From contig JAJRWX010000026.1 of NCBI GenBank assembly GCA_024276605.1, positions 1 through 64,000 of the forward strand: DNA of 64,000 nt, read 5' to 3'. This document shows, in pieces, positions 36,365-42,374 of the stretch (position 1 is its first letter; each line of letters starts with the position of its first letter). Under the pieces are notes generated by a model that was not told the origin of the DNA, ran no database searches, and saw nothing but the letters and a program-made list of their open reading frames with translations. The translations under genes were made by a program, and so were the position numbers. Source of the stretch: Planctomycetota bacterium. GTDB taxonomy: Bacteria; Planctomycetota; Phycisphaerae; UBA1845.

Positions 36365-36437
36365 GGGGCCGTAGCTCAGTTGGGAGAGCGCCTGGTTTGC
36401 AACCAGGAGGTCGAGGGTTCGAGTCCCTTCGGCTCCA
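36365..36437 (+). tRNA. tRNA-Ala (anticodon UGC)
   Basis: 73 bases fold as a full cloverleaf. Acceptor GGGGCCG / CGGCTCC includes the G3-U70 pair that marks tRNA-Ala. The anticodon stem CCTGG/CCAGG encloses TTTGCAA, anticodon TGC. The T arm has GGTTCGAGTCC. Discriminator A, no encoded CCA. The 3' part is the integration site of the element to the right; the tRNA stays whole because the element carries a copy of the 3' end. Confidence 0.96.
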
Positions 36438-37638
36438 GTTTTCGTGACGATTCAGTGCCACTCAATGCGGTTTCCTGCGAATCAGACGGGTTTGTTGATT
36501 CCACGTGCGACACCTTGCGAGCCGAAACGGCTACAGACTGCGCCGCATTCTGCGCCGCCTTGGTGAACAGTTCATCGGGTACATCGTTGACGTAATGCCG
36601 ACCGCTTATCGTGATGCTGTGACCTATCCATTTACTCACCGCATACTGCGGGAAAGTCATCGCCCATTCTTTTTCGCAGCTGGACCGCAGGGTTTGCCAC
36701 ATACCCTTCCACGGATCGACACCAGCCCGCATGATGATCTTCTCGAATGTTCGTCGTAGATGCCCACCCTTAGTCGTCAGAAGACGCTGTTCCCCATCCT
36801 CCGCCGCATCAAAACAATCTTGTAGTAGTTCCATCAGCTGGGGCGTGATCGGTACTTGGCGACGCTCATGGCCAGCGTGATGCTCTGTCTTTACGGATCG
36901 AACATTCAATCGGGCGTTGGCCCAATCAACATCATCCCAGTTCAGGCTATGCGACTCGCTAACGACTCGGAGTCCGGCCAGCCGGGCAAGTCCAAAGATC
37001 AATCGGGTTTTGGCGTTAGGGCAAGCCTCTAGGATTTTTGTCGTTTCGTCGGGGGTGATGTATCGGTTATTGGCGCTTCTCGTGGAGCCGGACTTCAGGT
37101 GTCTGAATGGCGACTCCGTGACTAGCAGCCGCCGCTCAGCTTCCGCGAAGATGGTCTTAGCGTTGCCACTGTGGACCTTTACCGTTGCTTCACTAAGTCC
37201 TAGACCTGCAAGCCATTGGCGCCAGTCAGACGCTTGATTCGGCGTTATTTTACGGATGGGTATGTCCGGAAGAAAATCTTTAAGCTTGTCGATGGTTTGC
37301 CCCAGCTTGAGCAAACTCGTGGGTTTCAATTCCTTAGCTCTACTGGCGAAGTACTTATCCAGCCATGCCCCCAGCTGTGAGCACTCACGTGGTTTTATAA
37401 GCCCCACATTGGCCAGCTTGGCATGTAGTACATCGTCAAGCTTACTCACCCACCTAGTGACCTCATCATCCGGCGGATGCCCTACGATGTTCGCCGCCAC
37501 AAGCTTTTCCACTTGCAGGCTGAATACGTTGGCCAGCTTACGTGTAACCCTGCCCAGTCGAATCGTCCGCCGCTTACCATCGGCTCCGACGAACAGGATA
37601 CGTTTGAGTCCATTCGGATCGTTTGCCACACTTGCCAT
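36376..37638 (-). CDS. Tyrosine recombinase (integrase) of the tRNA-Ala element
   Basis: 420 residues. SAM-like N-terminal domain at about 95-170; catalytic domain with R in A-G-L-R-V-V-S-E, R in T-L-R-S-S-C (Gln in place of the usual His three before it), G-H-S and the nucleophile Y in G-R-H-Y-V-N. The last 20 codons lie inside the att core and tRNA-Ala gene on the opposite strand. Four bases separate it from the XRE gene upstream. When the element is a circle the frame continues past the core into 42349-42131, giving a 480-residue form. Confidence 0.93.
   Translation of the reverse strand: MASVANDPNGLKRILFVGADGKRRTIRLGRVTRKLANVFSLQVEKLVAANIVGHPPDDEVTRWVSKLDDVLHAKLANVGLIKPRECSQLGAWLDKYFASRAKELKPTSLLKLGQTIDKLKDFLPDIPIRKITPNQASDWRQWLAGLGLSEATVKVHSGNAKTIFAEAERRLLVTESPFRHLKSGSTRSANNRYITPDETTKILEACPNAKTRLIFGLARLAGLRVVSESHSLNWDDVDWANARLNVRSVKTEHHAGHERRQVPITPQLMELLQDCFDAAEDGEQRLLTTKGGHLRRTFEKIIMRAGVDPWKGMWQTLRSSCEKEWAMTFPQYAVSKWIGHSITISGRHYVNDVPDELFTKAAQNAAQSVAVSARKVSHVESTNPSDSQETALSGTESSRKLEPKGLEPSTSWLQTRRSPN
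36415..36439. repeat. Attachment site at the tRNA end (attL)
   Basis: 25 bases, GGGTTCGAGTCCCTTC then GGCTCCAGT, identical to 42350-42374. It covers the T arm and acceptor 3' strand of the tRNA. On the minus strand it encodes L-E-P-K-G-L-E-P near the end of the integrase. Confidence 0.93.
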
Positions 37639-37642
37639 AGTC

Positions 37643-37870
37643 TTACCTACCTCTTTTCCGTCGCTTCGGTCGGATGATGATTTCCATACCCAGATAGTTG
37701 GCCAGCTTGTCCAAACTATCTAGCGATAGTCCGCGATGCCCAGCCACGAACCGCGACATAGCGCCTTGGTCGATACCCGTCGCCTTGCAGATTGCGTAAC
37801 GACTGGAGCCGCTTGTTTTAACCAGCTGGCGTATCTGATCGCTGAATAATTTATGTTTGCGTTCACTCAT
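37643..37870 (-). CDS. Small XRE-type helix-turn-helix regulator
   Basis: 75 residues: HTH at about 17-60 (S-R-Y-A-I-C-K-A-T-G-I-D-Q-G-A-M-S-R-F), then a strongly basic end. It is four bases upstream of the integrase start and translationally coupled to it, so it probably controls integration or excision. Confidence 0.85.
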   Translation of the reverse strand: MSERKHKLFSDQIRQLVKTSGSSRYAICKATGIDQGAMSRFVAGHRGLSLDSLDKLANYLGMEIIIRPKRRKRGR

Positions 37871-38132
37871 GTTTGACAGCCTACCTCTATGGTTGTCGTT
37901 ATGTCAAGTAGCCTTTTCTTCTTTCACGGGGGGCCTCTAGCACGCACGTGGTAAATACTGGAAAAAATGACGGAGTGAGGGGGTAAGGGTGAAAGAGGTA
38001 TATAGATATAAAATCATTATTATTACCCTCTAAACACACATTCTGGATTCACCTTTATTCACCTTTGTTTCACCTTGTTCCACCATTCTGTTGCTTGTTA
38101 CCCTACCGAATTAGGGTTCTTTCACCCACTGG

Positions 38133-40217
38133 TCATTCTACCAAACAGTATGACCTCGCGTTTCTCCCCTGCGTGGGATTTAACTTTTCCGAAACGGTTC
38201 CCTGTTCCATTAGGGTGCCAATGACATTCTTAAAGGTGGCTCTATCTAGTTTTATGCGTTTCAATAACAAACTGTGCGGGATCGTCTTGTTGGGCGCTTT
38301 GCGTAATTTTTCGATCACTCGCAAACACAGCGATTGAAACCGAGTATCCGCCACGTTGGCAGACACCATGAACAGCATTCGAGCAATCTGATACTCGTAA
38401 AAATCGATCGCCCAGGTAACTGCCGCCTCGCCTATCTCCGGATCGTCGTGCCTCTCTGATATGGCGTAGATCAACGCCAGCTTGCGGACCTGCTCGCCGA
38501 ATCTGCTCAGTACCGCAGCCGTCGCGTTGTCGTCATCGCTGTGGGCCTTGATAATCTTTTTAGTGTTGGCTGTTCGGGACTCTGATAAAATCGCCTGTGC
38601 GGCCTCTGTGGTGGGCACGATGATTGGTTCCGGGGCAATGTCGCTTATGTTGCCCTCAGATATTTGCAGCCCTGCCCACCAACCAACGATATCCATAATT
38701 TCTTGTGGCGGATCGATTATCTGTGCTCGCTGATCTATTCGCTCGCCGAATGACTCCAGAATGATTGATCGCCCTAAAAAACCATTGGTTAGCAGGTGCT
38801 CAGACAAAGCGCCGTAGTAATTTTTGGGGATGGCTGATCCCAGCAGGGTGAGGGACGGTTGATACACGGGGCATGGCGGCTCCGATCCGGCCCGCTTGCG
38901 GGTATAAAATATCGAGGCCGACGATGTATATAGCGTCAGCAGCGTGGACATAACCGTTTCCCAGCGTGACTCACGTGAGTTGGCCACGCATTGCAGCATC
39001 GAATCAATTTCGTCGGTTTGGAAGAATATGTTTGGTCGGCTTTGCACAGCGTCCTGAATGCCCTCGCCGCTCGCAAATCCGTTGCCCAGGCACAAGCCCA
39101 GATTAGCATTGGTCATAATCTTAACGTTTAGTTTTCTCGGCCAGTCCTTGCCCGATCCTGACAACCCTAATCCAAGTACCATGATGTTGGTACGGTTATC
39201 CTCAACATCGCGCACTTTGCGACCACCTAAAAATGCCTGCAATGTTAGTGCTCCGCAAAATGCCATGACGGGATTGGGGCAAGGCGCAGTTTCCAGGCAG
39301 TAGTCCTGCACCATATTAATAAAACCAGGTACGCGAATCAGGCGTGGTGGCATGTCACCGGGATTGGGCACCGCTTTAGGTTTCGGGGGTAGAGTCGTAT
39401 TGATTGATTTCCAATCATCCTCGAAATTGTCGTAGACGAATTTTTGGACCAGCGGCTCGCAACCCTTGCTGATTATGCTCTTGGCGATGCGGTCAACTTC
39501 GGCTCGCGGTAGGGGCGGGTTGCAGTGCCGTTCATTTTCTATGTGTAATACATCGTATACGGTGTCGTGATTCAGTCCGGGGCGTACAAGCATTCCTGCC
39601 ATTTTTGTTAGCGTACTGTTCCGCTGCCCTTCGGGTATCGATCTCGTACCGTCGCCGTTGATATGCTCGTGTGTTTGTGGTTGGTTGGGCCGCTCAATAT
39701 CTTGCACTAACCATGCAGGCGGTGATGGTAACTGGTCGGGTGATATATCAAGCACGCTACCCGGCGCCCATCGGTATGCTGCGTTTTTTCCATCGCTTGG
39801 CGCAACGATGATGTAGCCGTCGTCACCACGTATATCAACTTTATTAGCGATCTTACTGGCAGAGTTTTTGTACGCTTTACCGTTCGAAGAAAATATGTAA
39901 TGTCGTCCGCCCGATGGGGTTATTGCGCTTGGTGCTCGGGTAAAATCTATCGACTTGGTTTCGTCGTTTGGCCACGTGTTTGCATTGCCGTCAACATCAA
40001 CGACCAACATACCAATTGTGTGTAATCCAATGTTTGCATTAGGTGTTTTCGCCCACCATTTTTCGATTTGTTCGGCGCTCGAGGTGGCGTCCTTAAATCC
40101 GTGACCACCTAGCGGATGCTTGCCCCTTGGAGCACAGGGGAAAACTTTATATCCTAAGTCAGCATAGGCTAATGCGGCTTGTAATAACTTGACATTTTTT
40201 TGTGATTTTTCTAGCAT
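38133..40217 (-). CDS. Replication protein with Prim-Pol and DUF3987-like ATPase domains
   Basis: 694 residues. Residues about 10-165 are an archaeo-eukaryotic primase-polymerase domain: V-F-P-C, metal-binding D74-V-D76, G-G-R-H-Y-I-F at 103-109. Residues about 195-265 look like a primase C-terminal helical domain. Residues about 290-600 are DUF3987-like with G-S-G-K-D in the P-loop place and Q-T-D-E-I-D as Walker B. It would prime and unwind the element's DNA. The P-loop has Asp where Ser or Thr is usual, so ATP use needs testing. Confidence 0.85.
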   Translation of the reverse strand: MLEKSQKNVKLLQAALAYADLGYKVFPCAPRGKHPLGGHGFKDATSSAEQIEKWWAKTPNANIGLHTIGMLVVDVDGNANTWPNDETKSIDFTRAPSAITPSGGRHYIFSSNGKAYKNSASKIANKVDIRGDDGYIIVAPSDGKNAAYRWAPGSVLDISPDQLPSPPAWLVQDIERPNQPQTHEHINGDGTRSIPEGQRNSTLTKMAGMLVRPGLNHDTVYDVLHIENERHCNPPLPRAEVDRIAKSIISKGCEPLVQKFVYDNFEDDWKSINTTLPPKPKAVPNPGDMPPRLIRVPGFINMVQDYCLETAPCPNPVMAFCGALTLQAFLGGRKVRDVEDNRTNIMVLGLGLSGSGKDWPRKLNVKIMTNANLGLCLGNGFASGEGIQDAVQSRPNIFFQTDEIDSMLQCVANSRESRWETVMSTLLTLYTSSASIFYTRKRAGSEPPCPVYQPSLTLLGSAIPKNYYGALSEHLLTNGFLGRSIILESFGERIDQRAQIIDPPQEIMDIVGWWAGLQISEGNISDIAPEPIIVPTTEAAQAILSESRTANTKKIIKAHSDDDNATAAVLSRFGEQVRKLALIYAISERHDDPEIGEAAVTWAIDFYEYQIARMLFMVSANVADTRFQSLCLRVIEKLRKAPNKTIPHSLLLKRIKLDRATFKNVIGTLMEQGTVSEKLNPTQGRNARSYCLVE

Positions 40218-40241
40218 ACTGTATCCTTAATTTGTTATTGT

Positions 40242-40280
40242 GCGACGCTCGGACTATCACTCCGGGGCGTCGCTTTTTTT
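40242..40280 (+). terminator. Intrinsic terminator-like hairpin, plus strand
   Basis: GCGACGC / GCGTCGC, a perfect 7-bp stem (plus inner CGG/CCG), followed by seven T. The genes here are on the minus strand, so it may block transcription entering from the chromosome on the plus strand, or act as a structured spacer between the HTH and primase genes. Confidence 0.55.
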
Positions 40281-40283
40281 ATG

Positions 40284-40502
40284 TCACATATATGACACTT
40301 TTTTAGATTTTTCTGACAACCACTGCCGTAGTTCACGAACCGGGTACACGATGCACCGCCCGATTTTTGTGTGTGGAATGCCGCTTGTGGTGTCGGCTGT
40401 GATACTCCAGAGCAACCTTTCAGATATGCCCATCGCCGCCGCCGCCTGTTTTGGGCGAAGGGCTAACGGCTGGATGGTTTCGTCGGGGACATGGTTACTC
40501 AT
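40284..40502 (-). CDS. Excisionase-like helix-turn-helix protein
   Basis: 72 residues from ATG 40502, preceded by GGAAGGGG. An AlpA/MerR-type HTH: L-R-P-K-Q-A-A-A-A-M-G-I-S, then I-P-H-T-K-I-G-R, then Y-P-V-R-E-L-R-Q-W-L. Such proteins direct excision or regulate integrases in small elements. It overlaps the upstream HTH gene by 8 bases. Confidence 0.82.
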   Translation of the reverse strand: MSNHVPDETIQPLALRPKQAAAAMGISERLLWSITADTTSGIPHTKIGRCIVYPVRELRQWLSEKSKKVSYM

Positions 40503-40725
40503 GGTCACACCCCTTCCGTGCATCAATGGCGTGAAGTTCATGGCGAACCTGGGCCAGGGCATCGCTGTCATAGAGTCGCTGGCGTCCAGCCAGGGCAGTC
40601 GGTTTGATATGCCTTCGAGTTTGCAGGATATACAAAACCCGATGTAACCGAACCCCTAATTTTTCGGCCAAGACACTGGGAGTTCGAAGTCTTGGAATGG
40701 GTTGAACAATCACTGTGTCACTCAC
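40495..40725 (-). CDS. Small helix-turn-helix protein of the element
   Basis: 76 residues from GTG 40725; a TTG at 40779 is the only longer start and neither has a clear RBS. HTH-like segment T-P-S-V-L-A-E-K-L-G-V-R-L-H-R-V followed by R-Q-R-L-Y-D-S-D-A-L, a MerR-like wing. It is coupled to the excisionase-like gene by overlap. Probable regulator; target unknown. Confidence 0.65.
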   Translation of the reverse strand: MSDTVIVQPIPRLRTPSVLAEKLGVRLHRVLYILQTRRHIKPTALAGRQRLYDSDALAQVRHELHAIDARKGCDHE

Positions 40726-40809
40726 TTTCTGCGGCTTGTTGCCACATAAGTAAGCGAAAACAATCGTGCGATTGCTCAAAAACTACTATATTTTAAGGGT
40801 TTGGTTGTC

Positions 40810-40838
40810 CGCGATTAATCGCGATTGCGACCGCGATT
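40810..40838. repeat. Candidate iterons or operator: three CGCGATT repeats
   Basis: CGCGATT occurs directly at 40810, 40820 and 40832; the first two make the perfect palindrome CGCGATTAATCGCG. It lies in the gap between the 328-residue HTH protein and the small HTH gene. Short spaced repeats beside a replication gene set suggest an origin or operator. Confidence 0.5.
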
Positions 40839-40842
40839 GGTA

Positions 40843-41829
40843 TCAAGCGTGCTTGCGTTGCGGATATTCACGACGGGCTAATTCTTGATCTTGATACAGC
40901 TGCGCCATCTTCCGGCGCCCATTGCCGTCCAGTTGCTCAAGTTTTTTTCGTTCGCCGGGTGCAGATATGTCAATAACCTCACCTATCAACCGGTCCACGT
41001 CTTCGTCGGACAGCTGGTTTGACGGATCAACTTCGGTGTCCTGCCGGATGCGATCAAGCTCCCAATCGGACAAATCGACTGCTGGTGGTGCAGCCTTTTT
41101 ATCCTTGGTTTTCCTCCATTGTTTCAATCCCTCATCAGTCGTGACCGCTTTATGAACCGTTGATTCTGAACAGCCAACACGTTCGGCTAGTTCTTTTTGA
41201 CTTGTATACGGCTGTCCTTGGTTCATCAGTCTTATCAGGCGATCCCTCGCTTCCGTCCGGGACATCTTATTCGTTTGGTGATTGGCCGCGTTGGCATCCT
41301 GTGCATGTTCGATCGTTACTGCTTCATTGTATTCGGGCTGTGGAATACCTATCTCTCGATTTATAAATGCACTCACAGGTCCAGCTGCTATAGCGCGATT
41401 GATCAGTTCGAGTCGTTCGTCAACGTCGGCAATATCTTTTATTTCTAGACCTCGCTCGGAAAGGCACACCTCGAATGGCACAACAGTAGTCTCGCATACA
41501 ACTTGGACCACACCATCATCATCGGTAAGCCCGCTATAAATAACTGCATCACTTGATATTCTATCCGAGATGAATTTATTAAAAGGTCCACCAGCAAAAT
41601 ACACGAATCGCCGCGACTTTTCGCCATCTACATCGATACACACATTACATCGCAAGTAAGCCAATCCACTAGCGCACAGCTTACTGATTACCAGTTTTAC
41701 GGACGTGGGTAACTTGTTCCAAGGTGCCGTTGACCAGTCAACAGTATGGCACTGGATGAACGCATCTAGCTCTAGCATCAGCGATATTGTCAGTAGGAAT
41801 TTTTTAGACTGGAGCAGGCTATCAGACAT
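40843..41829 (-). CDS. Element-encoded protein with a central helix-turn-helix, function unknown
   Basis: 328 residues. The first 180 have no motif I recognise. Residues about 195-245 hold an HTH (S-Q-K-E-L-A-E-R-V-G-C-S-E-S-T-V-H-K-A-V) after a charged helix (M-S-R-T-E-A-R-D-R-L), in the style of ParB/KorB-type or replication regulators. An acidic then basic C-terminus follows. It is the first gene of the element's operon and lies beside two repeat clusters that it may bind. Confidence 0.65.
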   Translation of the reverse strand: MSDSLLQSKKFLLTISLMLELDAFIQCHTVDWSTAPWNKLPTSVKLVISKLCASGLAYLRCNVCIDVDGEKSRRFVYFAGGPFNKFISDRISSDAVIYSGLTDDDGVVQVVCETTVVPFEVCLSERGLEIKDIADVDERLELINRAIAAGPVSAFINREIGIPQPEYNEAVTIEHAQDANAANHQTNKMSRTEARDRLIRLMNQGQPYTSQKELAERVGCSESTVHKAVTTDEGLKQWRKTKDKKAAPPAVDLSDWELDRIRQDTEVDPSNQLSDEDVDRLIGEVIDISAPGERKKLEQLDGNGRRKMAQLYQDQELARREYPQRKHA

Positions 41830-42130
41830 ATCATCACCTACAAAAAACTCTCGCGCGTGTTGTTGGCGCCATTGCTTTTGAAAATGACCACGCGCAAGAG
41901 TCGGTTTTTAGGATCACACAACAAACGCCAACAAATTCATCATCCCACAGCCGCGGAGTTGGTGCAAATCCATGTTCGGAGTCTGATAGGAAGGGTGTGC
42001 GTTTGGTGAATTGTCATCGTTGATGGCTTATACAGTGTTGCTGGATTTTTTACATTTAATATGTCGTCCGGGCGCGATGCCCCGACCCGCGCGCTCTATT
42101 CGGCCAGGAAGTACCTTGGAAAACAATCCC
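41830..42130. promoter_or_regulatory. Control region of the element with two interleaved inverted repeats
   Basis: ACTCTCGCGCGTG (41847-41859) pairs with CACGCGCAAGAGT (41889-41901) at 12 of 13 positions. TTGTTGGCG (41860-41868) pairs with CGCCAACAA (41926-41934) exactly. The arms alternate, so the two stems cannot form as simple nested hairpins. The region lies just upstream of the first gene of the operon and probably holds its promoter or an origin. No gene is seen in the rest. Confidence 0.5.
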
Positions 42131-42349
42131 TCATTGCAACGTCCCAGGCATGGTCTGATCGCCGTAGCATATCGCCAGGATGCGAGCCTGTGTGGCCTTG
42201 GGTAGCGTCGGCCATGCGTCGATCAGCTGGACTAGTTCAGGGGGGATATTGGGAGTCGTTGTCTGGGTTTTGGATATGAGGTGCGCCGGATTCTGCGCCG
42301 CCTGTTTTGACAAACCCTTGTTTTCTCGATGTTTTTCACGCAAGGCTAG
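42131..42349 (-). CDS. Detached alternative C-terminus of the integrase (read through attP in the circular form)
   Basis: 72 codons and a stop in frame with the minus-strand reading L-E-P-K-G-L-E-P of the attR core. It starts L-A-L-R-E-K-H-R-E-N and continues A-A-Q-N-P-A-H and I-D-A-W-P-T-L-P. The integrase at the other end reads the same core in the same frame, so excision would fuse it to this segment. In the integrated state it has only a TTG (42343) as start and may not be made. See the finding for the frame count. Confidence 0.75.
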   Translation of the reverse strand, partial: LALREKHRENKGLSKQAAQNPAHLISKTQTTTPNIPPELVQLIDAWPTLPKATQARILAICYGDQTMPGTLQ

Positions 42350-42374
42350 GGGTTCGAGTCCCTTCGGCTCCAGT
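42350..42374. repeat. Attachment site at the distal end (attR)
   Basis: Exact 25-base copy of the tRNA-Ala 3' end at 36415-36439. Only the 3' part of the tRNA is present, so no second tRNA is made. Confidence 0.93.

Follow-up and report, generated by a model that had tools for sequence, protein, structure and literature searches.

In phage λ, the phage attachment site (attP) lies outside the integrase gene (int), and λ Int is not known to have a detachable tail domain. Other systems place the attachment site within a gene that integration then alters. In the Myxococcus phage Mx8, attP lies within int, and integration gives the gene a new 3′ end, which modifies the enzyme without killing it (PMC6070905). 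The archaeal SSV-type integrases also carry the att site within the integrase gene, which is partitioned on integration, and these ‘suicidal’ integrases have been called exclusive to archaea (PMC8371274). In mycobacteriophage BPs, attP is located in a regulatory gene, and integration changes the C-terminus of its product (PMC4557955). The subject here is a small integrated element in a 64,000-nucleotide stretch of a Planctomycetota bacterium (contig JAJRWX010000026.1, assembly GCA_024276605.1; the whole stretch is referred to as the window). Judged from gene structure, the swap itself, and the conservation of and selection on the exchanged part, integration in elements of this kind exchanges the C-terminus of the integrase throughout the phylum.

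An integrase gene that runs through the attachment core

The element is bounded by direct repeats of the left and right attachment site (attL and attR) type, targeted to a tRNA gene. The repeat, GGGTTCGAGTCCCTTCGGCTCCAGT, forms a 25-bp att core and is present in two exact copies, at 36415-36439 (integrase end) and 42350-42374 (tail end). The target, an intact tRNA-Ala(TGC) gene identified by ARAGORN (36365-36437, forward strand), adjoins the integrase end. The integrase is encoded on the reverse strand (36376-37638) and in this integrated, short form has 420 aa. It possesses the catalytic domain of a tyrosine recombinase (Pfam PF00589 Phage_integrase, E 1.5e-10), with R224, R318 and Y349 invariant in the integrase alignment (A2), together with a SAM-like core-binding domain; the integrase body also matches PF13102.

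The integrase frame passes straight through the core. From the start at 37638 to the core edge at 36415 it covers 1224 nt, or 408 codons; past the core, the integrated gene reads 12 antisense tRNA-Ala codons and stops at 36376. At the opposite end, the same frame continues beyond the other core copy for 72 codons and a stop (42131-42349, reverse strand), and translation of this segment yields what would be a detached C-terminal tail of the integrase. Joining the two ends gives a circle of 5935 bp, predicted to encode an integrase of 480 aa. The original prediction, made from the DNA letters and a list of open reading frames (ORFs), had arrived at the same core, frames, lengths and circle product, and recomputation of the repeat, the translations and the junction agrees with it to the base. 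Its description of the tail as basic and Ala-rich is correct for a basic stretch and loose as regards alanine; what follows is a conserved PELxxxxxAWPxLPxxxxARIL hairpin.

The window alone is weak evidence for an in-frame tail, because a random frame in it is open over 72 codons ∼15% of the time. This figure is what favours chance read-through, in which int merely overlaps the tRNA gene, as happens with many integrases that target tRNAs, and the frame at the far end is random. Chance read-through is refuted by two further observations, the conservation of the tail as a protein domain and its frame match with the integrase in every related element (29/29), and retains next to no probability.

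A conserved tail domain in Planctomycetota

A single-sequence search with the window tail gave weak matches in 24 of 294 genomes of the phylum, centred on PPELxxLIDAWPTLPxxxxARIL. Nearly all of these matches directly follow a stretch that can be read as the antisense of a tRNA T-arm; three frames are represented (GLEP, TRT and SNP types). A profile built from 26 tails (A1) matches 102 of 392 Planctomycetota genomes, up to 10 copies being present in some, and delimits a conserved domain in the window tail (PEL..L..AWP.LP....RAGILAMV; 42158-42250, reverse strand; E 3.3e-15). Across 68 distinct tails, third codon positions are the most variable, half of the conserved residues are encoded by differing codons, and the median ratio of nonsynonymous to synonymous substitution rates (dN/dS) is ∼0.25, a value biased downwards by the use of a protein profile to collect the tails. 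Substitution patterns of this kind indicate that the tail is under selection at the protein level. Among solved structures the best match to the profile is not significant (E 0.19), and Pfam contains no match to the tail ORF of the window.

Several genomes stand out by the tails they carry. A second tail, together with a GFEPTT core-like stretch near a contig end, is found in the same genome as the window (L093; contig C105, 71558-73024), which makes it probable that another such element resides in this host. Three genomes (G277, G029 and G395, the last being that of L192) have at least eight tails each, which suggests many co-resident elements. Genomes titled Vicinamibacteraceae and Actinomycetes (L143 and L206) also carry these integrases and tails; the L143 genome is grouped with the Planctomycetota set, so it is not an out-of-phylum control, and the record titles may be wrong.

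Tail and integrase share one reading frame

Integrases were sought with an iterated profile in the DNA downstream of the tails, and every integrase domain match in these tail-centred regions is on the strand of the tail. An integrase, a tail and a core common to both ends, mostly of tRNA origin, were all identifiable in 29 elements (the core of G247 is 12 bp and overlaps a tRNA; a few cores have no overlapping tRNA call). In every one of the 29, the tail keeps to the frame of the integrase across the core, against an expectation of one third for each (p ∼1e-14). The layout is not tied to one target: tRNA-Leu, Ala, Val, SeC, Asn, Ser, Gly, Ile, Met, Arg and Tyr genes are all used, as are all three T-arm frames, and the related elements measure between 3.7 and 19 kb. 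Most of the integrases are antisense to the tRNA. In two exceptions (L075 and L089) the integrase runs along the tRNA, reading tRNA-Leu in the sense direction with the tail still in frame, and the layout is therefore independent of tRNA orientation. One locus with only an integrase fragment (L066) was left out. Repeats in L073 and L195 (11-12 bp, outside the tRNAs) and a pairing in L192 were rejected as cores, being arm-repeat or chance matches.

An integrase-first search, conducted with alignment A2 and without use of the tail, recovered eight loci with both tRNA-derived cores and a matched frame extending 56-83 aa past the core. The tail motif is present in six of the eight, the other two (L150 and L164) having other tails, and six of the eight overlap with the 29 elements. 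L164 (1711818-1733047) comes from Adhaeretor mobilis HG15A2, a planctomycete that is in culture and whose genome is complete; the in-frame tail at this locus lacks the AWP motif and perhaps belongs to another tail class.

Fused forms in free phages and in a tandem array

The junction predicted for the circle can be compared with forms that exist uninterrupted. Two nearly identical IMG/VR contigs (L106/L107) hold a single integrase ORF of 520 aa that contains the catalytic domain, arm-like repeats, a tRNA-Ser-like core and the tail, and it is surrounded by phage genes, with those for tail fibre and virion proteins to one side and that for an exonuclease to the other. A further uninterrupted integrase-core-tail ORF, with a different tail sequence, is found in L122 with a terminase gene nearby. 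In the L101 tandem array, the integrase of the upstream copy passes through the core into the tail of the next copy, and the integrase of the last copy enters the tRNA. The predicted junction thus has natural examples, provided by relatives and not by the window element itself. The position of the attP core inside int in the free form, deduced for the window circle, is seen directly in L107, L122 and L101. Plasmid and named-phage collections contain no close relative.

These fusions bear on the idea that the tail represents a small protein in its own right, or a remnant of an integrase gene that stayed at the far end and is unrelated to the resident integrase. Every tail is its own open frame when integrated, and the window tail has a possible TTG start at 42343, as a separate protein would require. 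Separate translation is disfavoured because start signals are not enriched in the integrated state (3 of 72; the control frames gave 8 and 1), and a remnant would not show the protein-level constraint described above. Together with the frame match and the phage and tandem fusions, these observations refute a separate protein or remnant as a general account, which we consider highly improbable.

It is very likely that the tail swap is a real, selected arrangement. The structural part of the original prediction, a long integrase when the element is circular and a short one when it is integrated, is borne out by the conserved tail, the frame match, the free-phage and tandem fusions and the selection on the tail, and it applies well beyond a single element. 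Free elements whose frame ends right past the core, which had been named as the case that would speak against it, were not seen; L107 and L122 both continue into a tail.

The attachment site within the gene and the predicted protein

The core of the window element is flanked by a pair of 21-bp repeats matching at 20 of 21 positions, both read on the reverse strand and both putative arm-type integrase sites. One is in int (GGCGGCGCAGAATGCGGCGCA, coding for AAQNAA; 36539-36559), ∼100 bp from the core, and the other in the tail (GGCGGCGCAGAATCCGGCGCA, coding for AAQNPA; 42282-42302), ∼50 bp from the core. Core-flanking repeats are identical over 20 bp in L122, and similar ones occur in L107. The repeats look like P and P′ arm sites, and it is likely that the entire attP, comprising the core and both arm sites, is contained in the 3′ part of the int ORF.

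Arm sites flanking the core, which are likely here, are shared with heterobivalent integrases of the λ type, as is the fold of the integrase body. AlphaFold models the fused L107 protein with a beta-sheet/helix domain at its N-terminus, resembling arm-binding domains, and a λ-Int-like body (best PDB match 1z1b, E 1.1e-11); residues 385-456, encoded by attP, are disordered, and the C-terminal helices are folded (predicted local distance difference test score, pLDDT, ∼80). The window tail modelled alone forms two helices (mean pLDDT 73). The tail is thus predicted to be a two-helix hairpin that follows a disordered linker encoding attP.

A possible switch between insertion and excision

The explanation we favour, with a probability of roughly two in three, is a 5.9-kb mobile element integrated at tRNA-Ala, with the 3′ portion of its own integrase gene housing attP. 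The circle would encode a 480-aa integrase made up of arm-binding, core-binding and catalytic domains, the attP-encoded disordered linker and the two-helix tail. On the sequence evidence, recombination with the tRNA gene must cut int at the core: tRNA-encoded residues take the place of the tail in a 420-aa enzyme that retains its catalytic domain in full, and the coding sequence of the tail stays behind at the opposite end. The tailed form is most likely the one competent for integration; loss of the tail would lower or redirect activity, so that the integrated state is stabilised. Excision would need the short form and an excisionase, for which an HTH_17 protein of the element is a candidate, and either excision or tandem insertion would restore the tailed gene. 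Both forms of the integrase are presumably expressed. By analogy with Mx8 Int/IntX, the odds are about even that activity changes in this direction, with the tailed form integrating and the short form less active or redirected.

A role for the tail as a switch between insertion and excision is plausible, as it fits both the data and the Mx8 precedent. The Mx8 lysogen form, IntX, is reportedly less active than Int/IntP, a result attributed to Magrini et al. in 1999. In the Mx8 record, the phage-form Int reads the antisense tRNA T-arm (GGGACTTGAACCC, ...STGLEPVL...) and more than 100 residues follow; like Mx8 Int, the window integrase retains its catalytic domain on integration and gains a new C-terminus, here the 12 antisense tRNA codons. 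The two differ in that the Mx8 Int tail does not match the planctomycete tail profile (-1.0 bits), and that Mx8 is one phage lineage from another phylum, whereas the planctomycete tail is conserved phylum-wide. The planctomycete system would therefore work like Mx8, but homology between the two is not supported by the comparison of their tails. The principle is already known from Mx8 Int/IntX; what appears new is an unrelated tail conserved across Planctomycetota. No description of a planctomycete tail-swap system was found in the literature searched, which did not cover most subscription journals.

Integration could instead be irreversible and suicide-like, loss of the tail inactivating the integrase and excision depending on a tailed integrase from a tandem or second incoming element. 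Archaeal SSV-type integrases, split on integration, are seen as suicidal (PMC8371274), the L101 array recreates a tailed integrase frame and several genomes hold many tails. Yet the cut falls past the catalytic tyrosine and leaves the catalytic domain intact (alignment A2 and the L107 model), the element has its candidate excisionase, and the Mx8 lysogen form is not inactivated (PMC6070905). The window element is also not of the SSV type: the SSV split assigns the catalytic domain to the C-terminal fragment, with two pseudogenes as the outcome, whereas in the planctomycete gene this domain remains entire in the N-terminal piece and the loss is confined to the tail. Suicide-like integration is unlikely, although a serious contender.

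A second alternative involves no switch. The tail would be needed for ordinary integrase function in the circle, and its exchange would be a tolerated consequence of a compact, portable int-attP module; the location of attP and its likely arm sites wholly within the ORF, keeping the site with the enzyme, is in line with this. It can be argued, however, that a folded tail kept past attP in many unrelated integrases and tRNA sites, where a stop before attP might have been expected, suggests that its conditional loss is useful. We hold this account, too, to be rather improbable without being far-fetched.

The BPs system suggests a third alternative. BPs switches its repressor, the free-form tail of which is a degradation tag, whereas in the planctomycete element attP lies in the integrase gene, so the arrangement is not that of BPs. 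The tag logic could still apply if the tail shortened the life of the free-form integrase. This is quite unlikely: the conserved part of the tail is the internal two-helix hairpin, and the extreme C-terminal residues vary and share no common tag.

Several points weigh against the favoured explanation. The conserved swap could be a by-product of having attP in int, tolerated and not selected as a switch. No free copy of the window element itself was found, and its tail is a divergent member of the family. The in-frame tails of L150 and L164 lack the AWP motif, so tails vary, and the downward bias in dN/dS applies to the evidence for selection. The broader proposal, that mobile elements throughout the phylum, with their many tRNA targets and divergent integrases, use a conserved detachable C-terminal domain to sense their integration state, the enzyme editing its own gene and setting its own direction, could equally well prove right or wrong.

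If the favoured explanation holds, the Mx8 switch, which looked like an isolated curiosity, would follow a logic that is a common design in the mobile elements of Planctomycetota. Being a recognisable domain, the tail lends itself to deletion, exchange and testing, which makes the question of integrase self-sensing accessible in many systems. The swap would also explain the antisense tRNA ends of these planctomycete integrases, as well as the small orphan ORFs with an AWPxLP motif that sit beside tRNA-derived repeats.

Other genes of the element

Three further genes of the window element were annotated, all on the reverse strand. Immediately upstream of int is a gene for a small Cro/C1-type helix-turn-helix regulator (37643-37870; Pfam PF13443, E 7e-7). 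The element also has a Prim-Pol/PriCT-1 primase-polymerase gene (38133-40217; PF09250, E 1.9e-33). The HTH_17 protein (40284-40571) matches PF12728 with E 4.3e-5, slightly under the gathering score, and may serve as the excisionase, or recombination directionality factor (RDF), of the element.
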